A model generated the notes under the pieces. That model was not told where the DNA came from, ran no database searches, and worked only from the letters and a program-made list of their open reading frames with translations. Below, piece by piece: positions 1,932-64,000 of a stretch of DNA of 64,000 bases. The first letter of the stretch is position 1; the number at the start of each line of letters is the position of its first letter. Source of the DNA: Aurelia coerulea (lineage: Eukaryota > Cnidaria > Scyphozoa > Semaeostomeae > Ulmaridae); NCBI GenBank assembly GCA_039566865.1, contig CM076958.1:10020501-10084500 (forward strand), given 5' to 3'. Both the position numbers and the translations under genes were made by a program.

Positions 1932-2276
1932 TTATGCGCGCTTCTGCAATGCAGCGTAAATGAACAAAACTTCATCCAGGAGTTCTGCATTTAGAAGGCT
2001 ACATATAGCTCCAAACAGCTCCCAGCGCAAAGCTTCCTGCGCCTATGCCTGTGTGTGAACCAGTGGCGTGCTGGCAGGGGGGGCAGGGGGGCAGGGGGGG
2101 CAACTGCCCCCCCCCCTGCTGGTTGATTTTGAGGGGCGCCAGAGAGAATATCTATTTTAGGGGGCGCCGAAGGCGCCCTGATCAATTAGTTAGTGAACGA
2201 AGAGAACTTCTTGAAACATCGCAATGATACTAGGATATCAAATCAAATGGAAACTCAAAGAATTCGCTGTTTAATA

Positions 2277-2880
2277 CCAGGTGTCCCAAAAAATGTATAC
2301 AGATTTGGTTGACTCCAGCGATGTGAATTTAGTTTTATTTACTCTCAAAATGTTCCTCGATAGTCAACTTGAACATAGATACCTCGATTGTTGGTATTGG
2401 TGCTTTGAGAGCAGAAATATTAATCTTGAAAGCTCAAATTTGCGTCCACTTGCAAACCAGAGTTTTGGCCTTTTCGCCTAAGCAAATTCCTGAACCACAT
2501 CGAAATTAAGAACTGAAATCAGTGAAAAATTAAGAAACATCCTAATGGGTGACTGGGGGGGGGGGGGGTTGACTTCTGCAAAACGTAATAATACAAGATC
2601 TAATATTGCTCCAATTTCATCAAGGACCTCGTTGATTTATACACTGTGCCTTAAGAAATTGCTTACGCCAAAAGGCTAAAGCTCTGGTTTGCAGGAAAAG
2701 GCAAATTTGAGCTTTCAAGATTGATATTTCTGCTCCCAAAGCACCAATACCAACAAACGAGGTATCTATGTTCAAGTTAACTATCGAGGAACATTTGGAG
2801 AGTGATTAGCCATTGATTAAAGCTAAATTCACAGCGCTAGAGTCAACCAAATCCGTATACTTGGGTTTTGGGACACCCGG
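2277..2880. mobile_element. nested palindromic element, Tc1/mariner-like ends
   Basis: The ends read CCAGGTGTCCCAAAA and TTTTGGGACACCCGG, and both are flanked by TA (2275-2276 and 2881-2882), the target preference of Tc1/mariner transposons. The two halves are long inverted copies of each other: about 2277-2500 pairs with about 2650-2880, sharing blocks around GATTTGGTTGACTC and ACATAGATACCTCG. It therefore looks like a fold-back MITE inserted into the hAT element. The short frame at 2281-2481 is only one arm of this palindrome and is not a gene. The same insertion is present in the second hAT copy at 52583-53183, so it predates the spread of this hAT version. Confidence 0.7.
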
Positions 2881-2912
2881 TACTTCTCACGTTATTATCT
2901 TTTAGATCATAA

Positions 2913-3476
2913 ATCATTGCGTATCTATTCAAGTATGATTCCAATCAAATAATTAGCAGTCAAACGTCGAATTTGATTTTGATGTGTAGACCAGCCAAAC
3001 AGAAAACGAACCAACGAATACATGATGACTATGATTATGATGGCTATGATGATTATTATGAAGATTTTGATTGGCCAGGTGCGATACACAGAAAGCAAAT
3101 TGACGAAAAGTGCAAGCTGCCATCCTTTTCTGATGCCTTGCAGCTATGCTATGTCACTCCACGTACCATCTAATGGATGCATATCCCATCTTGCTTAGGG
3201 TACGTTTATGCTATTGCAATTGCCATTCCTGTGAGCTCCTCAACCGCTGAGCATTCGTTTTCCACGTCGCGGATACGCTCAACGATGGTTCAAGAGCTCC
3301 TTGAGTGCCTTCTGATGATGGCGTTTGGAAAAAAGATTTTTCTCTCCCTCGACAAAGACGAGCTCATTGACAGTTTAGAATTAGAAAAAAGTTTTCGTGA
3401 ACTTTCAATAGCATTTTATCATGAAAAAACTGGCATTCACTTCCTTCCCTTGCAAAGAAAATCTGTATTGGTATGA
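2913..3476 (+). pseudogene. hAT transposase C-terminal remnant (dimerisation domain)
   Basis: One reading frame runs from 2913 to 3476 with a single in-frame TAA at 3171-3173. The second half contains IPVSSSTAEHSFS followed by RSTM and a leucine-rich tail (LLECLLMMAF). This matches the hAT C-terminal dimerisation region, in which the pattern IPVSSASAERSFS...LRSTMGQERL is typical. The spacing between SFS and RSTM is shorter than usual by several residues, suggesting a small in-frame deletion. The upstream half, with an acidic DYDYDGYDDYYEDFDWPG stretch, is in the same frame but I do not recognise it. No N-terminal zinc finger or RNase-H-like catalytic core is present, because the element is only 2.0 kb long. 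The other copy carries the same stop codon, so the frame was broken before the copies separated. Not functional as a transposase. Confidence 0.8.
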
Positions 3477-3509
3477 ACAAATGAACTGGAATAGACGAAT
3501 TCAGCTAAC

Positions 3510-3952
3510 GCTGCTATCACTTGGTCAAAGGGATTCATACCATTACTCTTACAAAGTGGGCCCCCTTTAGGCCCACATAGAGTGGTTCCGTTTTTACCCA
3601 TCCAATTGCTAGAATTTAGTTTTCAACCAATAAGGACAATTGTTGTAATTGCTATTTAGACAGTTGTTGTTGTTGCATCCAAAAAACGGTTGATACGGCC
3701 TAGAGTTCTCGTAGCTGCGATGGATCTATTTTGTTTCTACAGAGGAAGATTACTGCTTTGAAAGGTATATTGTCTGTGATGCGTAGGTCAGGAAAACATT
3801 ATTTTTTTAACTAAAGTTTGCTTTTCAATGTTTAAGCTCCAAGCGATTTTGTTGTGTGTACGAGAACTCCCGCTTGTTTACGCCGTTTTGAAACAGGGGA
3901 CCCACTTTATAAGATGAATGGTGCGAGTCCCTATTGAGCAACTGATATCAGC
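3510..3952. repeat. nested fold-back element inside hAT copy 1
   Basis: The block at 3510-3567 (GCTGCTATCAC...CATACCATTACTC...AAAGTGGG) is repeated in inverted orientation at about 3895-3952, at roughly 80 percent identity by eye. Between the arms is about 330 bp of non-coding sequence. The arms may be the ends of another small inverted-repeat transposon; no clear target duplication was found. The equivalent 443-bp segment lies at 51511-51953 in the second hAT copy. Confidence 0.55.
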
Positions 3953-4200
3953 AAATCAAAGGACACGGGGAAACAAGGGACGATAAGTCATAAGTCTAGC
4001 AAGGGGCGCAATTTTGACCTATTGCCCCCCCTGCGATCTCATCCCCAGCACGCCACTGGTGTGAACACACAAATCTGTGCCATTTTATTCCCATTCCTTT
4101 ATCGGAAAGTCTATAAGTCCCGGTTTGAGTAAAATTACGAGACAAGGAATTTAGAAAACTAGCTTCCTTCTGTGTGTAAGAAACTCCCTCTTTATCTGAT

Positions 4201-5300: not shown

Positions 5301-5628
5301 CGGTCGGTGGTAAGTGGTTTCCTTGGTCGGTGGTCGGTGGTCGGTGGTCGGTGGTCGGTGGCCGGTGGTCGGTGGAAAGTGGTTTCCATGGTCGGTGGTA
5401 ATTGGTAAGTGGTTTTCTTGGTCGGTGGTAAGTGGTAAGTGGATTGTTGGTCGGTGGTCGGTGATAAGTATGGTCGGTGGTAAGTGGTTTGTTGGTCGGT
5501 GGTCGGTGGTCTTCGTGGTCGGTGGTCGGTGGTGTGGGTCGATGGTCGGTGGTCGGTCTGGTCGGTGGTCGGTGCGGTCGGTGGTATTTGGTCGCTGCAC
5601 TGGTCGGTGTGGTCGGTGGTAAGTGGTT
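5301..5628. repeat. TCGGTGG minisatellite, G-rich strand on plus
   Basis: Tandem 7-bp units GGTCGGT, interrupted by variants such as GGTAAGTGG, GGTTTCC and GGTTTTCTTGG, with longer-period reuse of those variants. The plus strand is G-rich with GG doublets every few bases, so two-tetrad G-quadruplexes are conceivable. The open frames on both strands here (for example 5152-5637 minus and 5314-5622 plus) are low-complexity translations, not genes. Confidence 0.9.
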
Positions 5629-46385: not shown

Positions 46386-46530
46386 TGTGAGATTAACGCC
46401 CCAAGCCCGAATCTCAGGGTAGATCCCAGTCCCCTGGATTGATAAAGGAATCTCACTCATACGTCAAACTGTTTCCGCTATCCCGTCAGTTGTTCTCGTA
46501 TATGGTTCAAGAAAGTCATCAAAGTTTCTT
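46386..46530 (+). repeat. split direct repeat A1
   Basis: Begins TGTGAGATTAACGCCCCAAG and ends TCATCAAAGTTTCTT. It abuts satellite on the left. It differs from A2 by three substitutions. Confidence 0.95.
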
Positions 46531-49500
46531 GTGGTACTGAAGATTTTGCTGTATACTGGCTTCTAGTAACGAGATGTCGACTACTGTTTAACCGAACCAT
46601 CGCACAGATAAAAGATTTGCCCGTTCAATTCGTGCACACACACTAGAAGGATCTATCAAGATCAGAATTACTTGGCACATCAACAAGCCAGCCAATCAAT
46701 GTGTATGACAATTAGCAAACGAAAGAGTAAACATCGGAATGGTTCATTTATAGCCCATTTGATATGCCTGCTGCCGATAATGAATCAATAAATTCTGAAA
46801 CTGAACCACAAGCAGCAAAGCTGGACAATCGCCCGAGTTGGCAACAACATTCTTGATGCCCACTACCCTTACTGCAGCCGTCAAACAAAGGGAATTCGCC
46901 AGTCAAATTAAGCCTAGAAGTCGTACAAAATCGGATGACAGAAGTTTTTCTCTCCAAAGTGAAGGAACACGTGAACCCAAGCATCCCCACCCCAAGCAGA
47001 TCTAGTTGCCACCCCCCTCACACAGAGCCTGAAACAGCCATGTAAGCCACAACAGCCACTGCAGTTCCATTTGTCCTTTAACCAAGGTAACATTCCTTCT
47101 TTATTTCAGTTGCCTCGTCGCCCATTGCCTCGTTGCTCATTATAGCACTTTCACGACGTTACGCCTAAAAGATTTATATCGAATTGATCACCTCTCTGTA
47201 TTCATCAGCCAAAAAAAAAACAATGTATAAAAGCCTGAACATGTTTTATATGGCGAGCAAGGAGACATAGATATGAGTTCTTGTATGGTGCATTCTTTAA
47301 CCCTTTCTCGGCCCCCCCTTCTTGGCTCCTCGATTTTTTGCACACCTAGAATACCCTTGCTTGGCTAAGCAACATCGACAAATTTCAGGCGTGACATACT
47401 GTGTCAGCACTGTGAGGGTCCCAATAGCTTAGGCCTCACTAGTAGGCCTGCAACTCAAATGTCATGTGCCTGATCACTTTGTGGCATACAGCGTAAATCA
47501 AAGCTACAAGACGGGAACACCATCCCTCCCAGGGCACCATTTTTTTTTCAAGGCAACTAATTCACCAGCAAGCCCCCCTCTCTATTGCCAGTTACCCCCC
47601 TCTTATTTTTCAGGTAAAACAAACGCCTACCCCATTATTGCGTCAATATTTAGTCGCCTGTTCTTTATCAATCACCAGATTCGCGTTTATCTGTGTTTTT
47701 ATGAGGGTCATTGAAGCCCGGAATCTTTTCAAATATTGCAGATAATTGGCCGTCTTCGTTCATGCGGAGTGGTGCCACATTATTATAAAACACATCATTA
47801 AATTTACTCCCATGGTGACCGAACTGTCTTCACCAAAGGATTTAGATGCGCTCTCTCTCTGCAGTTTCCGTGTATTTCAAAACCTGGAATTTTCGGTTTT
47901 CATTTGCGTGTATCTTCACTCAGGGCTAAATTAAACCATGACGATGATTTACGTAAGAGCACATCCGGCGATACATAATATGGTTTCATACCTCTCCAGC
48001 AAATACAAAATAGTTGAATACATTTATTTATTATTCATTTAGTTATAATTATCATATCATCATTCGATATTCCTATTTATTACCTGAATGTTTCGATTTT
48101 ATTACCATTTAATTTTGTTATTTAATTGTGTTGTTGGTCAGGGACCCGCCGTTGTTCTTCTGCGCCTTCCGCAAGGTTCTTATTGAGCGTTTTACACAGT
48201 CATCCGGATACATACACCCCTATGGTTATGAAACACAACTGCAAGGTCATGGTCTGTACCATGGGTCTACGCCCACCCCTGTTTCCCCTCCAGTCTCGTT
48301 TTGTAATGCAAATAAGAAATCCTTGAAAGATCACCCTGTGTGGTTGCATTACACTAGCTCCTTACAAATCGTAGGCTGAATAACACCCATCATATCTTAT
48401 TCCTCGAAAAAAAAAATTTATATATATATATATCATATATATACAATTTTTGAAAGCACGAGAAAACTGACCTACTGAACTGACCCACTCCTACTGAACT
48501 AGTCTGGGTCTATAGGGTCTGAAGCGTTGAATTCATAAGTTCCTCCCAAGATTGAAACAGGACAGTCAGCAAAGAATTGCGATTAAACCACAGAGTTTCG
48601 TTAATATCTGAAGCGAGCAAAGACATTCTCGATGGGCAGAATACTTTCATACCTGGAAGGAAAGTTATCAGATCGTTGAGCCTTTAACTATCCCACCAAC
48701 TGCTCATTTTCACTGCTGTTTCAAGGGATGTCGGCTTTGGTTCCCACAACAACAATCAATGGGTGTGTGCACCTGTATGTGAACGAACTGAAATCGATCC
48801 ACTGGAAGGAAATTTCCTTGTCTGAGTCCGTGTTGCTTGTGGAAAAATGATTTTAAATAAATTATAGGGCAAACGTTCAAACCTATAACCGCAACAAACA
48901 CACGTAACCTGTGAAACGATAAATGCAACGCAAGGAGCAACAACCAAAATGAACTCCTAACTAGTGAAAAGCTGTTATACATTCTGCAAGAGAAAACGAC
49001 TTACTCAACAACCCTGAAGAAAAACAAAATATTAACTTGCAGCTACAGTAAAGAGCAACGTGTAATAACCAAAACGCGTTTTGGTCGCACATTCGTCGGT
49101 TCGGCTTGTGCGAAGAACAATCTTGTACCCCCTCTCTGCGGTAACCGCAGCTTGGACATTTGGTCAGCCCAATCTTGAAAATCATCAGAAATCATGGCCG
49201 TCCTGCGAAGATCACTCTTCGTTCCTGACAATCACAGATTCAAAATCACAAGCATATACCGGGAATCGTCAATGTCATAGCTGATTGCAAGATAAAATAA
49301 GACAATTTCTTCAGCACATTCTTCAAACTGAAGCCTGTGGCCAGCAAGGATCTAATAGAAGTTTCAAAGGAGACTTGGAAACTTTAGAGCTGACCAAGTC
49401 GCGTCCAGGATGTTTGTTTTGTTTTTATAACTTAACTCGTTTTATTTTTATAAATTTTTATAACCATAACTTGAGCTCGACCTACATTAGGCCCCCCCCC

Positions 49501-49552
49501 CACCAGCACCAGGTTCCGTTGAGCTTTGGGGCGTATCTTGGCGTATCTTGGC
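46531..49552. other. interior of the split-direct-repeat element, no recognised gene
   Basis: About 3.0 kb, richer in GC than the satellite. Open frames reach about 115 codons (49285-49629 plus, 48710-48982 minus, 48128-48379 plus, 46748-46990 minus) and none shows a domain I know. Two short plus-strand stretches, ending MPAADNESINSETEP...WQQHS and containing VKQREFASQIKPRSRTKSDD, look more protein-like than chance and could be decayed gag-like or cargo sequence. The minus strand between 49231 and 48700 has several pyrimidine-rich AG sites (for example TTCTTCAG near 49011 and TCTTGCAG near 48984) that could be splice acceptors. I cannot tell captured host sequence from decayed element coding sequence. 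Confidence 0.5.
48417..48443. repeat. TA dinucleotide microsatellite
   Basis: Alternating TA run interrupted by CA, preceded by a run of A. Confidence 0.85.
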
Positions 49553-50094
49553 GGTTAGGCCACCAAATATGGTGGCGAAAATTTACAATTTATCAGTCCT
49601 TAGGCCCGATATATAACCTTATCATCTAGTTTAGGCCTAAGTCTATATTATTTGTAGTGTAGTTCTTGTGGCTCATTATGAGTCGCCATCTTTAAAGCTT
49701 ATGTTTACGAAAAGAGGCATGTCTGGTACCCTCGCTGTTGGGACAGAGGACCTGAGGGCAGGAAAAATCCCTGCAGCTGGCCTCACAAGTACCCACTACG
49801 GGGGACCAAGAAAGATGCAAAGAAAAATTCAAAGGAAAAAGAAAAAGAAAAATAACACAATCAGCTGGGGCAACTGATACCTCAGGTACTTCATGGCAGG
49901 ACAAAATGTACCTCCTATGCTGACCTAGGGGATCTTAAAGTTTCTTAATTGTTTACATATCGAATGCCAGATGCGACCCCAAAAGCTGCCAAACTGTGTC
50001 TCTTTTCTTAGTCCTATCTTCAGGTTCGGTGCAAAGGGGGTTCCGAAATGGTCTCAGGGCGATAGGGGAGTTAATCTGCCGTTTACGGAGTAAA
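49553..50094 (+). repeat. split direct repeat B1
   Basis: Begins GGTTAGGCCACCAAATATGG and ends GTTTACGGAGTAAA, running straight into A2. It contains a 69-codon frame (49668-49877, including TKRGMSGTLAVGTEDLRAGK and a Lys/Arg-rich tail). The equivalent frame in B2 has a shifted and altered tail, so I do not call it a gene. Confidence 0.95.
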
Positions 50095-50239
50095 TGTGAG
50101 ATTAACGCCCCAAGCCCGAATCTCAGGGTAGATCCCAGTCCCCTGGTTTGATAAAGGAATCTCATTCATACGTCAAACTGTTTCCGCTATCCCGTCAGTT
50201 GTTCTCGTATATGGTTCAAGACAGTCATCAAAGTTTCTT
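50095..50239 (+). repeat. split direct repeat A2
   Basis: Second copy of the 145-bp A repeat, immediately after B1. The B1/A2 junction reads GGAGTAAA-TGTGAG, which would be the joint of a circular form of the element. Confidence 0.95.
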
Positions 50240-50357
50240 CCTCCCACCCTCCCTTACATATTAGGTTTCTAGTACACCCAATAATTCCCGTAGTCCCTTC
50301 TCTCGGGTCGTTCTGGCCAAAAGACCTAGCAATAGTGTCCAATAGTCTCTGGTCGTC
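50240..50357. other. 118-bp linker between A2 and B2
   Basis: Begins CCTCCCACCCTCCC. It matches neither the sequence after A1 nor that before B1 and is found only once in the window. Confidence 0.7.
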
Positions 50358-50908
50358 GGTTAGGCCACCAAATATGGTGGCGAAAATTTACAATTTATCA
50401 GTCCTTAGGCCCGATATATAACCTTATCATCTAGTTTAGGCCTAAGTCTATATTATTTGTAGTGTAGTTCTTGTGACTCATTATGAGTCGCCATCTTTAA
50501 AGCTTATGTTTACGAAAAGAGGCATGTCTGGTACCCTCGCTGTTGGGACAGAGGACCTGAGGGCAGGAAAAATCCCTGCAGCTGGCCTCACAAGTACCCA
50601 CTACGGGGGACCAAGAAAGATGCAAAGAAAAAATTCAAAAGGAAAAAGAAAAAGAAAAAGAAAAATAACACAATCAGCTGGGGGCAACTGATACCTCAGG
50701 TACTTCATGGCAGGACAAAATGTACCTCCTATGCTGACCTAGGGGATCTTAAAGTTTCTTAATTGTTTACATATCGAATGCCAGATGCGACCCCAAAAGC
50801 TACCAAACTGTGTCTCTTTTCTTAGTCCTATCTTCAGGTTCGGTGCAAAGGGGGTTCCGAAATGGTCTCAGGGCGATAGGGGAGTTAATCTGCCGTTTAC
50901 GGAGTAAA
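50358..50908 (+). repeat. split direct repeat B2
   Basis: Second copy of the B repeat (551 bp against 542 bp in B1, the 9-bp difference lying in A and G runs and one extra AGAAAA unit). It ends GGAGTAAA directly against satellite sequence CATAAGACTAAAG. It includes the frame 50473-50691. Confidence 0.95.
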
Positions 50909-51404
50909 CATAAGACTAAAGAAAAAACTAATGTCTTTAGTAATGTTTCAAAGAATGGTGGCTGCAGAACTAATATAGTGCTCTGAAAGAAGTTAATTGA
51001 AGAACTACAGTTTTCAAGAATGATGAGTGCAATACTTTTTAAACCTTGATTGTAGCTACTAAGTTACTTTAATCAACACTTTTTATGTGGAAAATTTAAT
51101 TTACTTCAGAAAATAGACTTTCAATTAAACGATGTTTGTAAAGCTAACTTGAAAGTTAAGTAAAAACTAATGGCTATGGTAAAGTTTAAAAATATGGCGG
51201 CTGCATCACTATAATAGTGCTCTGAAAGAAGTTAATAGAAGAACTAAAGTTTTAAAGAATGATGAAAGCAATACTTTTTAAACTCTTAATTGTAGCTAGT
51301 AAGTTACTTTAATCCTCAGTTTCTATGTGGAAAATTTGATTTACTTCAGAAAATAAACATTTAGTTAATCGATATTTCTTAATGCAGTAAAGCTAACTTG
51401 AAAC
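50909..51404 (+). repeat. short satellite block between two insertions
   Basis: About two monomers of subfamily 1, continuing the interrupted monomer at CATAAGACTAAAG and ending at GCTAACTTGAAAC, where the inverted hAT copy begins. Confidence 0.95.
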
Positions 51405-51510
51405 CAGTGGCGTGCTGGGGATGAGATCGCAGGGGGGGCAATAGGTCAAAATTGCGCCCCTTGCTAGACTTATGACTTATCGTCCCTTGTTTCCCCGTGT
51501 CCTTTGATTT

Positions 51511-51953
51511 GCTGATATCAGTTGCTCAATAGGGACTCGTACCATTCATCTTATAAAGTGGGTCCCCTGTTTCAAAACGGCGTAAACAAGCGGGAGTTCT
51601 CGTACACACAACAAAATCGCTTGGAGCTTAAACATTGAAAAGCAAACTTTAGTTAAAAAAATAATGTTTTCCTGACCTACCCATCACAGACAATATACCT
51701 TTCAAAGCAGTAATCTTCCTCTGTAGAAACAAAATAGATCCATCGCAGCTACGAGAACTCTAGGCCGTATCAACCGTTTTTTGGATGCAACAACAACAAT
51801 TGTCTAGATAGCAATTACAACAATTGTCCTTATTGGTTGAAAACTAAATTCTAGCAATTGGATGGGTAAAAACGGAACCACTCTATGTGGGCCTAAAGGG
51901 GGCCCACTTTGTAAGAGTAATGGTATGAGTCCCTTTGACCAAGTGATAGCAGC
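51511..51953. repeat. nested fold-back element inside hAT copy 2
   Basis: Exact positional equivalent (443 bp) of 3510-3952, with inverted arms beginning GCTGATATCAGTTG and ending GTGATAGCAGC. Confidence 0.55.
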
Positions 51954-51986
51954 GTTAGCTGAATTCGTCTATTCCAGTTCATTTGT

Positions 51987-52550
51987 TCATACCAATACAG
52001 ATTTTCTTTGCAAGGGAAGGAAGTGAATGCCAGTTTTTTCATGATAAAATGCTATTGAAAGTTCACGAAAACTTTTTTCTAATTCTAAACTGTCAATGAG
52101 CTCGTCTTTGTCGAGGGAGAGAAAAATCTTTTTTCCAAACGCCATCATCAGAAGGCACTCAAGGAGCTCTTGAACCATCGTTGAGCGTATCCGCGACGTG
52201 GAATACGAATGCTCAGCGGTTGAGGAGCTCACAGGAATGGCAATTGCAATAGCATAAACGTACCCTAAGCAAGATGGGATATGCATCCATTAGATGGTAC
52301 GTGGAGTGACATAGCATAGCTGCAAGGCATCAGAAAAGGATGGCAGCTTGCACTTTTCGTCAATTTGCTTTCTGTGTATCGCACCTGGCCAATCAAAATC
52401 TTCATAATAATCATCATAGCCATCATAATCATAGTCATCATGTATTCGTTGGTTCGTTTTCTGTTTGGCTGGTCTACACATCAAAATCAAATTCGACGTT
52501 CGACTGCTAATTATTTGATTGGAATCATACTTGAATAGATACGCAATGAT
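51987..52550 (-). pseudogene. hAT transposase C-terminal remnant (dimerisation domain), copy 2
   Basis: Same frame and length as the remnant at 2913-3476, read on the minus strand, with IPVSSSTAEHSYS then RSTM. It carries one amino-acid difference in the downstream half (Phe to Tyr after AEHS) and the same in-frame TAA between the two halves (52287-52289). The upstream half is identical in translation to that of copy 1. The shared stop shows that both copies descend from an already broken source. Not functional. Confidence 0.8.
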
Positions 52551-52582
52551 TTATGATCTAAAAGATAATAACGTGAGAAGTA

Positions 52583-53183
52583 CCGGGTGTCCCAAAAAAA
52601 TGTATACGGATTTGGTTGACTCTAGCGCTGTGAATTTAGCTTTAATCAATGGCTAATCACTCTCCAAATGTTCCTCGATAGTTAACTTGAACATAGATAC
52701 CTCGTTTGTTGGTATTAGTGCTTTGGGAGCAGAAATATCAATCTTGAAAGCTCAAATTTGCCTTTTCCTGCAAACCAGAGCTTTAGCCTTTTGGCGTAAG
52801 CAATTTCTTAAGGCACAGTGTATAAATCAACGAGGTCCTTGATGAAATTGGAGCAATATTAGATCTTGTATTATTACGTTTTGCAGAAGTCAACCCCCCC
52901 CCCCAGTCACCCATTAGGATGTTTCTTAATTTTTCACTGATTTCAGTTCTTAATTTCGATGTGGTTCAGGAATTTGCTTAGGCGAAAAGGCCAAAGCTCT
53001 GGTTTGCAAGTGGACGCAAATTTGAGCTTTCAAGATTAATATTTCTGCTCTCAAAGCACCAATACCAACAAACGAGGTATCTATGTTCAAGTTGACTATC
53101 AAGGAACATTTTGAGAGTAAATAAAACTAAATTCACATCGCTGGAGTCAACCAAATCTGTATACATTTTTTTGGGACACCTGG
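52583..53183. mobile_element. nested palindromic element in hAT copy 2
   Basis: Ends CCGGGTGTCCC and GGGACACCTGG with TA on both sides (52581-52582 and 53184-53185). It is the same insertion as at 2277-2880. Confidence 0.7.
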
Positions 53184-53387
53184 TATTAAACAGCGAATTC
53201 TTTGAGTTTCCATTTGACTTGATATCCTAGTATCATTGCAATGTTTCAAGAAGTTCTCTTCGTTCACTAACTAATTGATCAGGGCACCTTCGGCGCCCCC
53301 TAAAATAGATATTCTCTCTGGCACCCCTCAAAATCAACCAGCAGGGGGGGCAGTTGCCCCCCTGCCCCCCCTGCCAGCACGCCACTG

Positions 53388-56192
53388 CTTGAAACTTAAG
53401 AAAAGATTAATGTCTTTAGTAATGTTTCAACGAATGGCGTCTGCATCACTAAAATAGTGCTCTGAAAGAAGTTAATAGCAGAACTAAAGTTTTAAGGTAT
53501 GATGAGTGCAATACTAATTTAACTCCTAATTGTAGCTACTAAGTAACTTTAATCCACAATTTTTTTTTTCATTGTAAATTTGATTTACTTCAGAAAATAA
53601 AAATTTAAATAATCGATGTTTGCTAATACGGTAAAGCTAACATGAAAGTTAAGAAAAACAAATGGCTATGGGAAAGTTTCAAAACTTGGCGGCTGCATCA
53701 CTAAAATAGTGCTCTGAAAGAAGTTAATAGCAGAACTAAAGTTTTAAAGAATGATGAAAGCAATACTCTTTAAACTCTTAAATGTAGCTAAAAAGTTACT
53801 TTAATCCACACTTTCTATGTGGAAAATTTGATTTACTTCAGAAAATAAACATTTAATTAATCGATGTTTGTTAATGCGGTAAAGCTAACATAGGACTAAA
53901 GAGAAAATTAATGTCTTTAGTAATGTTTCAAAGAATGGCGGCTGCATCACTAAAATAGTGCTCTGAAAGAAGTTAATAGCAGAACTAAAGTTTTAAAAAA
54001 TTATGAAAGCAATATTCTTTAAACTCTTAATTGTAGCTACCAAGTTGCTTTAATCCACACTTTCTACATGGAAATATTGTTTTCCTTGAGAAAATAAACA
54101 CATCGATGCTTGCTTATGCAGTAAAGCTAACATAAGACTAAAAAAAACATAATGTCTTTAGTATTGTTTCAAAGAATGGTGGTTGCAGATCTAATATAGT
54201 GCTCTAAAAGAAGTTATTTGCAGAACTAATGTTTTAAAGAATGATTATTGGAATACTTTTTAAACTCTTAATTGTAGCTACTATGCTATTTTAATCCACA
54301 CATTTTACATTGTAAATTTGATTTATTTCAGAAAATAAAAATTTAAATAATTGATGTTTGTTAATGCCGTAAAGATAACATGATTATGGGATTATGGGAA
54401 AGTTTCAAAAAATAGCGGCTGCAGCACTAAAATAGTGCTCTGAAAGAAGTTAATTGCAGAACTACAGTTTTAAGGTATAATGAAAGCAATACTCTTTAAA
54501 CTCTTAATTGTAGCTACCAAGTTGCTTTAATCCACACTTTCTATATGGAAAATTTGTTTTCCTTGAGAAAATAAACAGATAGTTCATCGATGTTTGCATA
54601 TGCAGTAAAGCTAACATAAGACTAAAAAAAAGACTAATGTCTTTAGTAATGTTTCAACGATTCGCGGCTGTATCACTAAAATAATGCTCTGAAAGAAGTC
54701 AATAGCAGAACTGAAGTTTTAAGGTATGATGAGTGCAATACTCAATAATTTCGTATTTGTAGCTACTAAGTTACCTTATTCTACACTTTTTATGTGGAAA
54801 ATTTGATTTCCTTGAGAAAAAAAACAGATAGTTCATCGATGTTTGCTTAAGCTGTAAAGCTAACATAAGACTAAATAGAAACTTATGTCTTTAATAATGT
54901 TTCAAAGAATGGTGGCTGCAGATCTAATAAAGTTCTCTGAAAGAAGTTAATTGCAGAACTAAAGTTTTAAAGAATGATGAGTGCAATACTTTTTAAACTC
55001 TTAATTGTAGCTACTAAAATACTTTAATCCACACTTTTTACATTGTAAATTTGATTTACTTCATGAAACAAACATTTAAATAATCGTTATTTGTTAAAAC
55101 GGTAAAGCTAACATGAAAGTTAAGAAAAAACAAATGGCTATGGGAAAGTTTCAAAAAATGGCGGCTGCATCACTAAAATAGTGCTCTGAAAGAAGTTAAT
55201 AGCAGAACTAAAGTTTTAAAGAATGATGAAAGCAATGCTCTTTAAACTCTTCATTGTGGCTACTAAGTTACTTTAATCCTCATTTTCTATGTGGAAAGTT
55301 TGATTTACTTCAGACAATAAACATTTAATTAATCGATGTTTGTTAGTGCGGTAAAGCTAACTTGAAACTTATGAAAAAACTAATGTCTTTAGTAATGCTT
55401 CAAAGAATGGTGGTTGCAGATCTAATATAGTGCTCTGAAAGAAGTTAATTGCAGAACTTAAGTTTTAAAGAATGATTAGTGCAATACACAATAAACTCTT
55501 AATTGTAGCTTACCAAGTTGCTTTAATCCACACTTTCTAGATGGAAAATTTGTTTTCCTTGAGAAAATAAACAAATAGTTCATCGATGTTTGCTTATGCA
55601 GTAAAGATAACATAAGACTAAAAAGAAAAATAATGTCTTTAGTTATGTTTCAAAGAATGGTGGTTTTAGAACTAATATAGTGATCTAAAAGAAGTTAATT
55701 GCAGAACTACAGTTTTCAAGAATGATGAAAGCAATACTCTTTAAATTTTTAATTGTTGCTACTAAGTTACTTTAATCCACAGTTTCTATATGGAAAATCT
55801 TTTTTCCTTTAGAAAATAAACATTTAATTATTCGTTGTTTGTTAATGCGAATAAGGCTAACATAGGACTAAAGAAAAAACTAATATCTTTAGTAATGTTT
55901 CAAAGAATGGTGGCTGCAGAACTAATATAGTGCTCTGAAAGAAGTTAATTGCAGAACTACAGTTTTCAAGAATGATGAGTTCAATACTCAATAATTTCTT
56001 AATATTAGCTACTAAGTTACTTTAATCAACACTTTTTTTGTGGAAAATTTGTTTTCCTTGAGAAAATAAACAGATAGTTCATCGATGTTTGCTTATGAAG
56101 TAAAGCTAACATAAGACTAAAGAAAAAACTAATTTCTTTAGTTATGTTTCAAAGAATGGTGGTTGCAGATCTAATATAGTGCTCTGAAAGAA
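53388..56192 (+). repeat. satellite array, subfamily 1, right part
   Basis: About 11 monomers of mixed A-like and B-like type with several truncated or altered copies (for example 54093-54110 lacks the AGATAATT segment, and 54375-54400 has a duplicated GATTATGG). It begins with the second copy of the hAT target duplication. Confidence 0.95.
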
Positions 56193-57940
56193 GTAACTGG
56201 CAGAACTAAAGTTTTAAAGAACGATGAGTGCAATATTTTTTATAATATAAATTGTAGCTACTACATTACGTTAATCCACACTTTTGGTGTTTATATTTGT
56301 TTTCTTTGAGAAAGTTAACATTTGATTAAGCGATGTTTGTTTATACAATAAAGCTAAAATGAGACTAAAGAAAAAACTTATGTCTATAAAAATGTTTCAG
56401 GAATGGTTGCTGCAGCACTAATATAGTGCTTTAAAAGAAGTTACTGGTAGAACTAAAGTTTTAAAGGACGATGAATGCTATACTCTTTATAATATAAATT
56501 GTAGCTGCTAAAGTACGTTAATCCTCACTTTTTGTTTTTATATTTGTTTCTTTGAGAAAATAAACATATAATTAATTGATGTTTGTTTATGCACTAAAGC
56601 TAAAATGTAGTTAAAAATTAGGTTGATGCAGCACTAATGTAGTGCTATAAAAGAAGTAAGAGGCAGAACTAAAGTTTTAAGAACGATGAGTGCAATACTG
56701 TTTATACTATAAATTGTAGCTACTAAAGTAGGTTAATCCACCCTTTTTGTGTTTATATTTTGTTTTTTTTTTTCAAAAATAAACATTTTCTTAATCGATG
56801 TTTGTTTATACTGTAAAGCTAAAATGATACTAAAGAAAAAACTAATGTCTATAAAAATGTTACTAGGAATGGTTGTTGCAGCACAAATGTAGTGCTATGA
56901 AAGAAGTAACTGGTAAAACTAAAGTTTTAAAGAACGATGAGTGCAATATTCTTTATAATATAAATTGTAGCTACCACGTTACGTTAATCCACACTTTTGG
57001 TGTTTATATTTGTTTTCTTTGAGAAAATAAACATTTAATTAATCGATGTTTGTTTATGCAGTGAAGCAAAATTGAGACTGAACATAAAGCTAATGTCTAT
57101 AGTAATGTTTCCAAGAATAGTTTTGCAGCACTAATGTAGTGCTATAAAAGAAGTAACAGGCAGAACTAAAGTTTTAAAAAACGATAAATGCAATACTTTT
57201 TATATAATAAATTGTAGCTACTACGTTACGTTAATCCACACTTTTTGTGTTTATATTTTGTTTTCTTTGAGAAAATAAACATTTAAATAATCGATGTGTG
57301 TTTATGCAGAAAAGCTTAAATGAAACAAAAGACAAAACTAATGTCTATAGTAATGTTTCCAAGAATGGTTGCTGCAGCACTAATATAGTGTTATAAAGGA
57401 AGTAGCTGGCAGAAGTAAAGTTTTGAAGAACGATGAGTGAAATACTGTTTATAATATAAATTGTAGCTGCTAAAGTACGCTAATCTACACTTTTTGTTTT
57501 ACATTTTACTTTCTTTGAGAAAATAAACATTTAATTAATCGATGTTTGTTAATGCTGTTTGTTAATGCTGTAAAGCTAAAATGAGACTAACGAGAAAACT
57601 AGATTCTATAGTAATTTTTCCAAGAATGTTTGATGCAAGACGAATATAGTGCTATAAAAGAAGTAACTGGCAGAACTAAGATTTAAAGAATGATGAGTGC
57701 AATACTCTTTATAATATAACTTTTAGCTCCTAAAGTACGTTAATCCACACTTTTTGTTTTGAAATTTGTATTCTTTGAGAAAATAAACATTTAATTTTAC
57801 TGCATGAACATAAACATAAACATAGAGAAAATAAACATTTAATTAATCGATGTTTGTTTATGCTGTAAAGCTAAAATGAGACTAAAGAAAAAACTAATGT
57901 CTATAAAAATGTTTCCAGGAATGGTTGTTGCAGCACTAAG

Positions 57941-60900
57941 ATAGTGCTATACAAGAAGTAACAGGCAGAAATAAAGTTTTAAAGAACGATGAGTGCAATC
58001 TTTTTTATGATATAAATTGCAGCTGTTAAAGTACGTTAATCTACACTTTTTGTTTAATATTTGTTTTCTTTGTGAAAATAAACATTTAAATAATCGATGT
58101 TTGTTTATGCAGTAAAGCTAAAATGTAATTAAAAATTAGTTTGCTGCAGCACTAATATAGTGCTATAAAACAAGTAACTTGCAGAATTAAAGTTTTAAAG
58201 GACGATGAGTGCAATACTCTTTATAATGTAAATTGTAGCTATTAAAGTACGTTAATCCACACTTTATGTGTTTCCATTTTGATTTCTTTGAGCAAATAAA
58301 CATTTAATTAATCGATGTTTGTTTATACAGTAAAGCTAAAACGAGACCAAAGAAAAAACTTATGTCTATAAAAATGTTTCAGGAATGGTACTAGTAGAAC
58401 AAAAGTTTTAAAGGACGATGAGTGAAATACTGTTTATAATATATATTGTAGCTGCTAAAGTACGTTAATCCACACTTTTTGTTTTTATATTTTGTTTTCT
58501 TTGAGAAAATTAACATTTAATTAATCGATGTTTGTTTATGCAGTAAAGCAAAAATTAGACTGAAGAAAAAACTAATGTCTATAGTAATGTTTCCAAGAAT
58601 GGATTCTGCAGCACTAATATAGGGCTATAAAAGAAGTAACTGGCAGAACTAAGTTTCAAAGAACGATGAGTGTAATACTTTTTAAAATATAAATTGTACC
58701 TTCTAAGTTACGTTAATCCACACTTCTTGTCTTTATATTTTGTTTTCTTTGAGAAAATAAACATTTAAATAATCGATATTTGTTTATGCAGAAAAGCTAA
58801 AATGAAACTAAAGACAAAACTAATATCTATAGTAATGTTTCCAAGAATGGTTGCTGCAGCACTAATATAGTGTTATAAAGGAAGTAGCTGGCAGAAGTAA
58901 AGTTTTAAAGAATGATGAGTGCAATACTCTTTATAATATAACTTTTAGCTGCTAAAGTACGTTAATCCACACTTTTTGCTTCGAAATTTGTTTTCTTTGA
59001 GAAAATAAACATTAATTTTACTGCATAAACATAAACATAAACATAGAGAAAATAAACATTCAATTAATCGATGCTTGTTTTTGCTGTAAAGCTAAAATGA
59101 GACTAAAGGAAAAACTAATGTCTATAAAAATGTTTCCAGGAATGGTTATTGCAGCATTAATATAGTGCTATACAAGAAGTAACCGGCAGAACTACAGTTT
59201 TAAAGAACGATGAGTGCAATATTTTTTATAATATAATTTGTAGCTGCTAAAGTACGTTAATCTACACTTTTTGTTTTATATTTGCTTTCTTTGTGAAAAT
59301 AAACATTTAATTAATCGATGTCTGTTAATGCAGTAAAGCTAAAATGTAATTAAAAATTAGGTTGCTGCAGCACTAATATAGTGCTATAAAACAAGTAGCT
59401 TGCAGAATTAAAGTTTTAAAGGACGATGAGTGCAATACTCTTTATAATGTAAATTGTAGCTATTAAAGTACGTTAATCCACACTTTATGTGTTTTCATTT
59501 TGTTTTCTTTGAACAAATAAACATTTAAGTAATCGATGTTTGTTTATGCAGTAAAGCTAAAACGAGACTAAAGAAAAAACTTATGTCTATAGTAATGTTT
59601 CAGTAATGGTTGCTGCAGCACTAATATAGTGCTATTAAAGAAGTTACTGGTAGAACAAAAGTTTTAAAGGACGGTGAGTTAAATGCTGTTTATAATTTAT
59701 ATTGTAACTGCTAAAGTACGTTAATCCACACTTTTGTTTTTACATTTTGTTTTCTTTGATAAAATAAACATTTAAATAAGCGATGTTTGTTTATGCAGTA
59801 AAGCTAAAATGTAATTAAAAATTAGGTTGCTGCAGCACTATTATAGTGCTATAAAACAAGTAGCTTGCAGAATTAAAGTTTTAAAGGACGATGAGTGCAA
59901 TACTCTTTATAATGTAAATTGTAGTTATTAAAGTACGTTAATCCACACTTTATGTGTTTCCATTTTGTTTTCTTTGAGCAAATAAACATTTAATTAATCG
60001 ATGTTTGTTTATGCAGTAAAGCTAAAACGAGACCAAAGAAAAAACTAATGTTTATAAAAATGTTTCAGGAATGGTTGCTGCAGCAATAATATAGTGCTAT
60101 TAAAGAAGATACTATTAGAACAAAAGTTTTAAAGGACGATGAGTGCAATACTGTTTATAATATATATTGTAACTGCTAAAATACGTTAATCCACACTTTT
60201 TGTTTTTATATTTTGTTTTCTTTGAGAAAATAAACATTAAATTAATCGATGTTTGTTTATGCAGTAAAGCTAAAATTAGACTAAAGAAAAAACTAATGTC
60301 TATAGTAATGTTTCCAAAAATGGATGCTGCAGCAATAATATAGTGCTATTAAAGAAGATACTAGTAGAACAAGAGTTTTAAAGGACGATGAGTGCAATAC
60401 TGTTTATAATATATATTGTAACTGCCAAAGTACGTTAATCCACACTTTTTGTTTTTATATTTTGTTTTCCTTGAGAAAATAAACATTTAATTAATCGATG
60501 TTTGTTTATGCAGTATAGCTAAAATTAGACTAAAGAAAAAACTAATGTCTATAGTAATGTTTCCAAGAATGGATGCTGCAGCACTAATATAGTGCCATAG
60601 AAGAAGTTACTGGTAGAACTAAAGTTTTAAAGGACGATGAGTGCAATACTGTTTATAATATATATTGTAACTGCTAAAGTACGTTAATCCACACTTTTTG
60701 TTTTTATATTTTGTTTTCTTTGAGAAAATAAACATTAAATTAATCGATGTTTGTTTATGCAGTAAAGCTAAAATTAGACTAAAGAAAAAACTAATGTCTA
60801 TAGTAATGTTTCCAAAAATGGATGCTGCAGCAATAATATAGTGCTATGAAAGAAGTAACTGGCAGAACTAAAGTTTTAAAGAACGATGAGTGCAATATTT

Positions 60901-61085
60901 TTTGTAATATAAATTGTAGCTACTACGTTACGTTAATCCACACTTTTGGTGTTTATATTTGTTTTCTTTGAGAAAATAAACATTTAAATAATCGATGTAT
61001 GTTTATGCAGAAAAGCTAAAATGAAACAAAAGTCAAAACTAATGTCTATAGTAATGTTTCCAAGAATGGTTGCTGCAGCACTAAT
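57941..61085 (+). repeat. 3145-bp higher-order repeat, copy 1
   Basis: The words AAATGTAATTAAAAATTAG (58121 and 61266) and ATTAATTTTACTGCATAAAC (59011 and 62156) recur 3145 bp apart, and the order of all intervening variants is the same. The unit contains about 13 monomers. These include one with a deletion of about 35 bp (near 58388) and one with an extra ACTGCATAAACATAAACATA segment of about 45 bp (near 59015). Confidence 0.92.
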
Positions 61086-64000
61086 ATAGTGCTATACAAG
61101 AAGTAACAGGCAGAAATAAAGTTTTAAAGAACGATGAGTGCAATCTTTTTTATGATATAAATTGCAGCTGTTAAAGTACGTTAATCTACACTTTTTGTTT
61201 AATATTTGTTTTCTTTGTGAAAATAAACATTTAAATAATCGATGTTTGTTTATGCAGTAAAGCTAAAATGTAATTAAAAATTAGTTTGCTGCAGCACTAA
61301 TATAGTGCTATAAAACAAGTAACTTGCAGAATTAAAGTTTTAAAGGACGATGAGTGCAATACTCTTTATAATGTAAATTGTAGCTATTAAAGTACGTTAA
61401 TCCACACTTTATGTGTTTCCATTTTGATTTCTTTGAGCAAATAAACATTTAATTAATCGATGTTTGTTTATACAGTAAAGCTAAAACGAGACCAAAGAAA
61501 AAACTTATGTCTATAAAAATGTTTCAGGAATGGTACTAGTAGAACAAAAGTTTTAAAGGACGATGAGTGAAATACTGTTTATAATATATATTGTAGCTGC
61601 TAAAGTACGTTAATCCACACTTTTTGTTTTTATATTTTGTTTTCTTTGAGAAAATTAACATTTAATTAATCGATGTTTGTTTATGCAGTAAAGCAAAAAT
61701 TAGACTGAAGAAAAAACTAATGTCTATAGTAATGTTTCCAAGAATGGATTCTGCAGCACTAATATAGGGCTATAAAAGAAGTAACTGGCAGAACTAAGTT
61801 TCAAAGAACGATGAGTGTAATACTTTTTAAAATATAAATTGTACCTTCTAAGTTACGTTAATCCACACTTCTTGTCTTTATATTTTGTTTTCTTTGAGAA
61901 AATAAACATTTAAATAATCGATATTTGTTTATGCAGAAAAGCTAAAATGAAACTAAAGACAAAACTAATATCTATAGTAATGTTTCCAAGAATGGTTGCT
62001 GCAGCACTAATATAGTGTTATAAAGGAAGTAGCTGGCAGAAGTAAAGTTTTAAAGAATGATGAGTGCAATACTCTTTATAATATAACTTTTAGCTGCTAA
62101 AGTACGTTAATCCACACTTTTTGCTTCGAAATTTGTTTTCTTTGAGAAAATAAACATTAATTTTACTGCATAAACATAAACATAAACATAGAGAAAATAA
62201 ACATTCAATTAATCGATGCTTGTTTTTGCTGTAAAGCTAAAATGAGACTAAAGGAAAAACTAATGTCTATAAAAATGTTTCCAGGAATGGTTATTGCAGC
62301 ATTAATATAGTGCTATACAAGAAGTAACCGGCAGAACTACAGTTTTAAAGAACGATGAGTGCAATATTTTTTATAATATAATTTGTAGCTGCTAAAGTAC
62401 GTTAATCTACACTTTTTGTTTTATATTTGCTTTCTTTGTGAAAATAAACATTTAATTAATCGATGTCTGTTAATGCAGTAAAGCTAAAATGTAATTAAAA
62501 ATTAGGTTGCTGCAGCACTAATATAGTGCTATAAAACAAGTAGCTTGCAGAATTAAAGTTTTAAAGGACGATGAGTGCAATACTCTTTATAATGTAAATT
62601 GTAGCTATTAAAGTACGTTAATCCACACTTTATGTGTTTTCATTTTGTTTTCTTTGAACAAATAAACATTTAAGTAATCGATGTTTGTTTATGCAGTAAA
62701 GCTAAAACGAGACTAAAGAAAAAACTTATGTCTATAGTAATGTTTCAGGAATGGTTGCTGCAGCACTAATATAGTGCTATTAAAGAAGTTACTGGTAGAA
62801 CAAAAGTTTTAAAGGACGATGAGTTAAATGCTGTTTATAATATATATTGTAACTGCTAAAGTACGTTAATCCACACTTTTGTTTTTACATTTTGTTTTCT
62901 TTGATAAAATAAACATTTAAATAAGCGATGTTTGTTTATGCAGTAAAGCTAAAATGTAATTAAAAATTAGGTTGCTGCAGCACTATTATAGTGCTATAAA
63001 ACAAGTAGCTTGCAGAATTAAAGTTTTAAAGGACGATGAGTGCAATACTCTTTATAATGTAAATTGTAGCTATTAAAGTACGTTAATCCACACTTTATGT
63101 GTTTCCATTTTGTTTTCTTTGAGCAAATAAACATTTAATTAATCGATGTTTGTTTATGCAGTAAAGCTAAAACGAGACCAAAGAAAAAACTAATGTTTAT
63201 AAAAATGTTTCAGGAATGGTTGCTGCAGCAATAATATAGTGCTATTAAAGAAGATACTATTAGAACAAAAGTTTTAAAGGACGATGAGTGCAATACTGTT
63301 TATAATATATATTGTAACTGCTAAAATACGTTAATCCACACTTTTTGTTTTTATATTTTGTTTTCTTTGAGAAAATAAACATTAAATTAATCGATGTTTG
63401 TTTATGCAGTAAAGCTAAAATTAGACTAAAGAAAAAACTAATGTCTATAGTAATGTTTCCAAAAATGGATGCTGCAGCAATAATATAGTGCTATTAAAGA
63501 AGATACTAGTAGAACAAGAGTTTTAAAGGACGATGAGTGCAATACTGTTTATAATATATATTGTAACTGCCAAAGTACGTTAATCCACACTTTTTGTTTT
63601 TATATTTTGTTTTCCTTGAGAAAATAAACATTTAATTAATCGATGTTTGTTTATGCAGTATAGCTAAAATTAGACTAAAGAAAAAACTAATGTCTATAGT
63701 AATGTTTCCAAGAATGGATGCTGCAGCACTAATATAGTGCCATAGAAGAAGTTACTGGTAGAACTAAAGTTTTAAAGGACGATGAGTGCAATACTGTTTA
63801 TAATATATATTGTAACTGCTAAAGTACGTTAATCCACACTTTTTGTTTTTATATTTTGTTTTCTTTGAGAAAATAAACATTAAATTAATCGATGTTTGTT
63901 TATGCAGTAAAGCTAAAATTAGACTAAAGAAAAAACTAATGTCTATAGTAATGTTTCCAAAAATGGATGCTGCAGCAATAATATAGTGCTATGAAAGAAG
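61086..64000 (+). repeat. 3145-bp higher-order repeat, copy 2 (cut by window end)
   Basis: The first 2915 bp of a second copy. By eye I found only four substitutions against copy 1: near 59594/62739 (T/G), 59675/62820 (G/A), 59696/62841 (T/A) and 59934/63079 (T/C). This indicates a very recent duplication. Confidence 0.92.

Follow-up and report, generated by a model that had tools for sequence, protein, structure and literature searches.

Ngaro retrotransposons are described, in section 11 of PMC8547959 for Cafeteria and in parts of PMC9210276 for Xenopus Ngaro-like elements, with the order A1-[open reading frames (ORFs)]-B1A2B2 and with gag, reverse transcriptase (RT)/RNase H and recombinase genes, no methyltransferase being found; solo AB copies are also reported for Cafeteria (PMC8547959). 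These passages, together with parts of PMC4157794, supplied the Ngaro criteria used here. Against this background, a 4523-bp element was analysed in a window of 64,000 nt of Aurelia coerulea CM076958.1 (the window is the whole stretch of DNA analysed, and positions below are window positions). The element is very probably a non-autonomous member of the Ngaro-type lineage, that is, of retrotransposons with split direct repeats and a tyrosine recombinase. To our knowledge, the rebuilding of ends and the integration of split-direct-repeat retrotransposons are known largely from models. A single genome offers here both a non-autonomous family and a gene-bearing relative, with copies in full, single-B and solo form and clear empty sites in satellite DNA, and the footprint of the family (a 7-base spacer, a polarised core, and B1 and B2 alike in each copy) makes such models testable.

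Repeat comparison verified the order A1-interior-B1-A2-S-B2 to the base at 46386-50908. A first-pass annotation of this DNA had read A1-interior-B1-A2-B2, with B1 fused to A2, inside a satellite; both order and location hold, and the spacer S is added. The edges are exact (46385/46386 and 50908/50909), both flanks consist of a 249-bp satellite, and when joined they align to a satellite stretch at 94% without a gap. The parts are as follows.

46386..50908, + strand: whole element, 4523 bp, very probably non-autonomous and of Ngaro type (repeat and flank analysis)
46386..46530, + strand: A1, 5' terminal repeat, with the donor core TGTGAGA as its first 7 bases (repeat comparison)
46531..49551, + strand: interior (I), without readable genes, common to long copies (Pfam and locus comparison)
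49552..50094, + strand: B1, internal copy of the 3' repeat (repeat comparison)
50095..50239, + strand: A2, internal copy of the 5' repeat, fused to B1 with the junction AAA-TGTGAGA-TTA (repeat comparison)
50240..50356, + strand: S, 117-base spacer from A2 to B2, present in the short units read (locus comparison)
50357..50908, + strand: B2, 3' terminal repeat, ending in CCGTTTACGGAGTAAA (repeat comparison)
50909..50915, + strand: target 7-base core adjoining the right end, not duplicated (flank and empty-site comparison)

A1 and A2 are 97.9% identical, B1 and B2 about 97-98% with indels, and no bases separate B1 from A2. DIRS1-like elements share the combination of RT and tyrosine recombinase with this lineage but differ in their inverted terminal repeats: a repeat search with a minimum length of 40 found no inverted pair of 40 bases or more in the window element. 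Folding of 50850-50906 revealed nothing special in the way of a 3' hairpin (z -0.48), and Rfam and tRNA scans of the window gave no match.

The split-repeat arrangement is not a chance one, because it recurs at other loci of the same genome. The 574-Mb assembly (294 contigs) was searched with A as the query, and 40 matches were scored of 82 candidates, yielding the window element plus 28 other loci. These loci were chosen by likeness to A including its core, so that copies with another core could rank lower; all 40 matches start at query base 7, the first core base, or earlier. The full form A-I-B-A-S-B, for which the first-pass annotation had proposed such a search, is present at 16 of the 29 loci (B2 is truncated in one, and another has an extra A-S-B). 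A-I-B stands alone at 9/29 (B is interrupted in one and partly lost in another) and A-S-B alone at 2/29; one locus has a duplicated A-S-B and one is truncated. The interior is common to the long genomic copies, and the A-S-B unit of about 0.8 kb also stands alone. At the duplicated locus (L017), the A-S-B copies lie about 3.0-3.3 kb apart with identical left flanks, and therefore the element seems to have been duplicated along with its satellite surroundings. At another (L015), the 16 last bases of another element end (CCGTTTACGGAGTAAA) precede the composite copy, which suggests, from the sequence, either that the copy inserted at a relic end or that an upstream copy was lost.

A census of ends extended this picture. 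It comprised 79 A starts with at most 3 mismatches (0 and 2 in reversed-pattern controls) and 97 3' ends (controls 1 and 0), which were split by sequence into 80 of the window family and 17 of a second family. Since A and B more than 8 kb apart were left unjoined, some lone A or B may belong to longer copies. The resulting 76 chains include 16 long-short, one long-short-short, one long plus A, and 15 long, the rest being 9 short, one short-short, 15 lone A, 17 lone B and one other. The long unit comes first in 18/18 multi-unit chains that hold one, and a short-then-long order is absent among the 76. The usual distance from A start to B end is 3.4-3.7 kb; at C15:10119929-10127628 an A start lies 6.9 kb before the next B end, with none of the RT matches listed below inside, and at C6:12714507-12726636 the distance is 12.1 kb.

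The 249-bp satellite lies on both sides of 19/29 loci, a raw count that does not by itself show a preference, and on one side of L017, where the right flank is cut short. DIRS-1 is said to accumulate at Dictyostelium centromeres, according to a passage of PMC9210276.

The second family, with the 3' end GTTAATCCGCGATTTACGGAGTAAA and paired ends 828-832 bases apart at five places, includes gene-bearing copies. The two copies read, L037 and L038, have the order A1, gag, RT/RNase H, tyrosine recombinase, B1, A2, S, B2, so that the internal repeats lie downstream of the recombinase gene, as in Ngaro, while the window copy retains the split repeats. Longer relatives with these genes between A1 and B1 had been predicted by the first-pass annotation, and L037 and L038, whose end motifs and repeat order match those of the window family, bear this out. 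The gag frame has 438 residues in L037, the RT-RNase H frame is open over 653 residues in L038, and the recombinase frame has 361 residues (L037/L038). Pfam identified RVT_1 in the L038 pol (E 4.9e-12). The recombinase has 551 homologues at E <= 0.001, with PF00589 on 23 among the 120 listed. In an alignment of 11, R197, R312 and Y343 are kept in 11/11 and H309 in 10/11; we take these four to be the catalytic positions. Four second-family copies with a single end were sampled at their 3' ends: three (L039, L040, L042) pass from ORF to B to flank directly, and the fourth (L041) runs on into A2. A search of the host genome, in which 68 of 1291 candidates were scored, listed 70 Ngaro-like RT matches. 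Their identity is 40-100%, and many have frames that stay open over 500-970 codons; judging from these sequences, several Ngaro-like families may be young in this genome.

The two families are related beyond their ends. An alignment of their B repeats covers 458 columns at 70% identity (E 3e-52), and five stretches in the interior of the window element are colinear with the relative (E 3e-10 to 1e-3). The proteins of the relative also detect, by tblastn, degraded traces of two genes on the + strand of the interior, in gene order: gag, and pol at its RNase H end.

46746..47243, + strand: degenerate gag remnant (tblastn, E 3.5e-5 with L037 gag, 0.002 with L038 gag)
48339..48631, + strand: segment of 293 bases present in 7/29 loci (locus comparison)
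48580..48765, + strand: degenerate remnant of pol residues 467-530, reaching into the beginning of RNase H (E 2.8e-9, L038 pol as tblastn query)
49137..49384, + strand: degenerate RNase H remnant (pol residues 571-653) in two frames (tblastn, E 3.9e-13 for two pieces together)

A reversed-protein control gave a best E of 0.05. The pol remnants are assigned to the RNase H end because the RNase H motif TDASG begins at pol residue 512. Pol matches were obtained in 9/9 other loci of the family searched by tblastn, and L037 gag matches in 8/9 (E 5e-8 to 6e-4). The window copy looks like a deleted derivative of the gene-bearing type, a likeness read from its sequence.

Variation within copies provides further evidence. 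The sample comprised 14 composite loci for B; L017 and L029 were left out, and for B also L016, whose B2 is truncated. B1 equals B2 in 68 of 70 informative cells, compared with a mean of 43.5 and a maximum of 60 for shuffled partners (0/10000 shuffles reach 68), and B1-B2 divergence is 0.32% within copies versus 0.69% between. For A, a single informative column agrees in 15/15, which 20/10000 shuffles reach. Because B1 and B2 share variants copy by copy, both B copies of one insertion seem to be made from one template, as the split-repeat model wants.

Empty sites were sought by joining the flanks of each copy. A spanning match was found in 24/27, and 19/24 of these are gap-free within 10 bases of the junction. 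The five gapped matches contain 1 to 9 gap letters in that stretch: three (L009, L024, L037) lie beside T runs, L013 is a poor match, and L027 has three letters at the junction against a related repeat. L023, L026 and L038 gave no spanning match, L038 being uninformative as its A2 was taken as the left end. No target duplication was seen at the joined-flank sites.

Target preference was assessed at 24 sites with binomial statistics against flank composition, leaving out L015 (relic left end), the duplicated L017, L029, which shares its site with L028, and L016 and L033 (without a complete right end). These sites are not fully independent, because several occupy like positions of one satellite, though the loci differ. 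A is found at -2 in 23/24 (P 1e-9), T at +8 in 20/24 (P 2e-6) and T at +9 in 22/24 (P 2e-8); -3 is A or T in 24/24, whereas A at -1 occurs in just 14/24 (P 0.02) and A or T at +10 is not above flank composition (P 0.16). Between +1 and +7 some preference exists at +1 alone (0.43 bits). The window copy is followed, after its target core, by C and then T, not TT. In the second family, the right ends of L037-L040 and L042 were read, and TT occupies +8/+9 in 5/5. The strong target positions lie symmetrically around +4, which defines a 7-base spacer; the B-A junction of the element itself, AAA-TGTGAGA-TTA, is spaced alike. Tyrosine recombinases typically have inverted arms set 6 to 8 bases apart, according to a passage of PMC3212892.

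The newest aspect of these results is the polarity of the core. TGTGAGA starts 49/49 A copies (window plus L009-L036), of which 30, in 28 loci, are terminal; the donor 7 bases stay at the A end in 30/30 of these, a count that includes three from the duplicated L017 and L028 and L029 at one site. The other 19 follow a B end (18 in multi-unit copies, one after the L015 relic end) and do not test polarity, because position alone keeps the core there. TGTGAGA begins the right flank at 0/24 sites. With a double-stranded donor and an unmatched 7-bp core, the donor core would be expected at the A end and at the B end in roughly equal numbers. The one-sided result would fit a single-stranded donor, a strand-biased donor or biased repair.

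A route for the family can be proposed on this basis. The proteins of the gene-bearing relative would act in trans on the window family, reverse transcription would rebuild both ends via the internal B1-A2 junction, and the recombinase would then recombine the B-A junction with a target of the same spacing. Mobilisation in trans is a putative step, since the relative belongs to a different family and no listed RT falls in the long-unit chains among the candidates scored. As a tentative and less than even possibility, the recombinase may act as on integron cassettes, inserting into the chromosome a cDNA junction that is single-stranded or strictly strand-biased; it would recognise the 7-base spacer between A and TT and leave the donor 7 at the A end and the target 7 beyond the B end. 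Single-B (A-I-B) and solo (A-S-B) copies would be derivatives: either the recombinase would resolve a circle at its two B-A junctions, or ordinary recombination would follow insertion (B1 x B2 or A1 x A2); for single-B copies both routes would look alike because B1 and B2 are nearly identical.

Other explanations of the locus were weighed against the Ngaro-type reading. Helentron/Helitron2 elements are marked by a Rep/helicase gene and T-T insertion, and the insertion sites read here follow no T-T rule. These elements and Cryptons were considered after the first 28 loci and dropped once RT/recombinase relatives with the same ends emerged. In a related form, the locus would hold two separate DNA transposons, Helentron-like rolling-circle or Crypton-like, that share their ends: a long A-I-B lying head to tail with a short A-S-B. 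A-I-B and A-S-B do occur alone with the same ends, target duplication is zero, and the motif AGATTAAC[G/T]CCCC is inverted near both ends; Cryptons, too, integrate by a tyrosine recombinase with no ordinary target duplication, as described in parts of PMC3212892. The same parts have Cryptons encoding no RT, whereas the lineage here has RT and RNase H. Independent side-by-side insertion would be expected to give both orders of units, so the invariable precedence of the long unit speaks against two elements, as do the co-variation of B1 and B2 within loci, the same repeat order in relatives around gag, RT, RNase H and recombinase genes, and the RNase H remnants in the interior. We regard the two-element explanation as very improbable. 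Least credible is a long terminal repeat (LTR) retrotransposon or an artefact of tandem duplication. Near the ends, A and B do form direct repeats, and a tandem unit of 793-814 bp exists, so the unit of about 800 bp that the first-pass annotation named as a competing possibility is real; it stands beside the full form, whose interior is shared. LTR elements differ further in their target duplications, which that annotation had also named as a refuting outcome and which are lacking at the joined-flank sites; moreover, the arrangement recurs at other sites and the relatives have a recombinase gene in place of an integrase.

Within the split-repeat class, Ngaro and PAT had been named together by the first-pass annotation; the class stands, and PAT fits less well. 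Pat1-like elements have split direct repeats and a Gag zinc knuckle according to parts of PMC4157794, and both are shared here. At E <= 0.01, Pfam detected no methyltransferase in the L037 gag or in the ORFs of L038, where the RT-RNase H frame overlaps that of the recombinase, although a distant domain could escape; none appears in the precomputed Pfam domains among the 120 RT homologues listed. Because this domain was not found, Ngaro appears the better fit under the published criteria, and a PAT-type element is unlikely. The lineage differs from described Ngaro elements in the spacer S between A2 and B2, in a window copy without coding capacity, in the frequency of single-B copies, and in that Pfam found no SGNH hydrolase in the ORFs of the relative. 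The literature passages searched make no mention of single-B copies, a statement confined to those passages.

Several observations weigh against the Ngaro-type reading. Pfam, run in six frames on the window element, gave nothing above cutoff and one chance match below it; the first-pass view that the interior has no RT, RNase H or recombinase motif thus holds for Pfam and fails for the gag and RNase H remnants found with the relative's proteins. For the RT palm region (the RVT_1 part), tblastn gave no significant match in the window (best E 0.13), and it found no recombinase domain there apart from a weak N-terminal trace (E 0.009), which makes the copy non-autonomous. The relative is of a different family, with the core TAAAAGA and the B-A junction AAA-TAAAAGA-TTA, and blastn at E 1e-3 matched neither A nor S of the window family to it outside the end motif that both share. 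Its genes are imperfect: a 472-base insertion breaks the L038 gag start, the L037 pol is open just in two overlapping frames, and zf-CCHC (zinc knuckle), RVT_3 (RNase H) and Phage_int_SAM_4 (recombinase) in L038 score under the Pfam curated cutoffs. None of the 70 listed RT matches lies inside the 33 long-unit chains (68/1291 candidates scored). Single-B copies (15 chains) are about as frequent as full ones (17), yet have no internal junction, which the model requires, and the likeness of B1 and B2 could also be produced by gene conversion. The first-pass suggestion of a non-autonomous or decayed Ngaro/PAT-like member is nevertheless supported by the colinear remnants, the missing recombinase domain and the gene-bearing relatives.

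The window contains further repeats. Two copies of another interspersed element, each of about 2 kb, face opposite ways (2058-4060 and 51403-53390); they are 98% identical, and each has an internal inverted pair of about 220 bases. The minus-strand ORF 51987-52289 appears hAT-like by eye and has no Pfam match. The satellite forms a higher-order repeat (57003-60855 versus 60205-64000, 95%, offset about 3.1-3.2 kb), and an array of GGTCGG-like units occupies 5302-5585.

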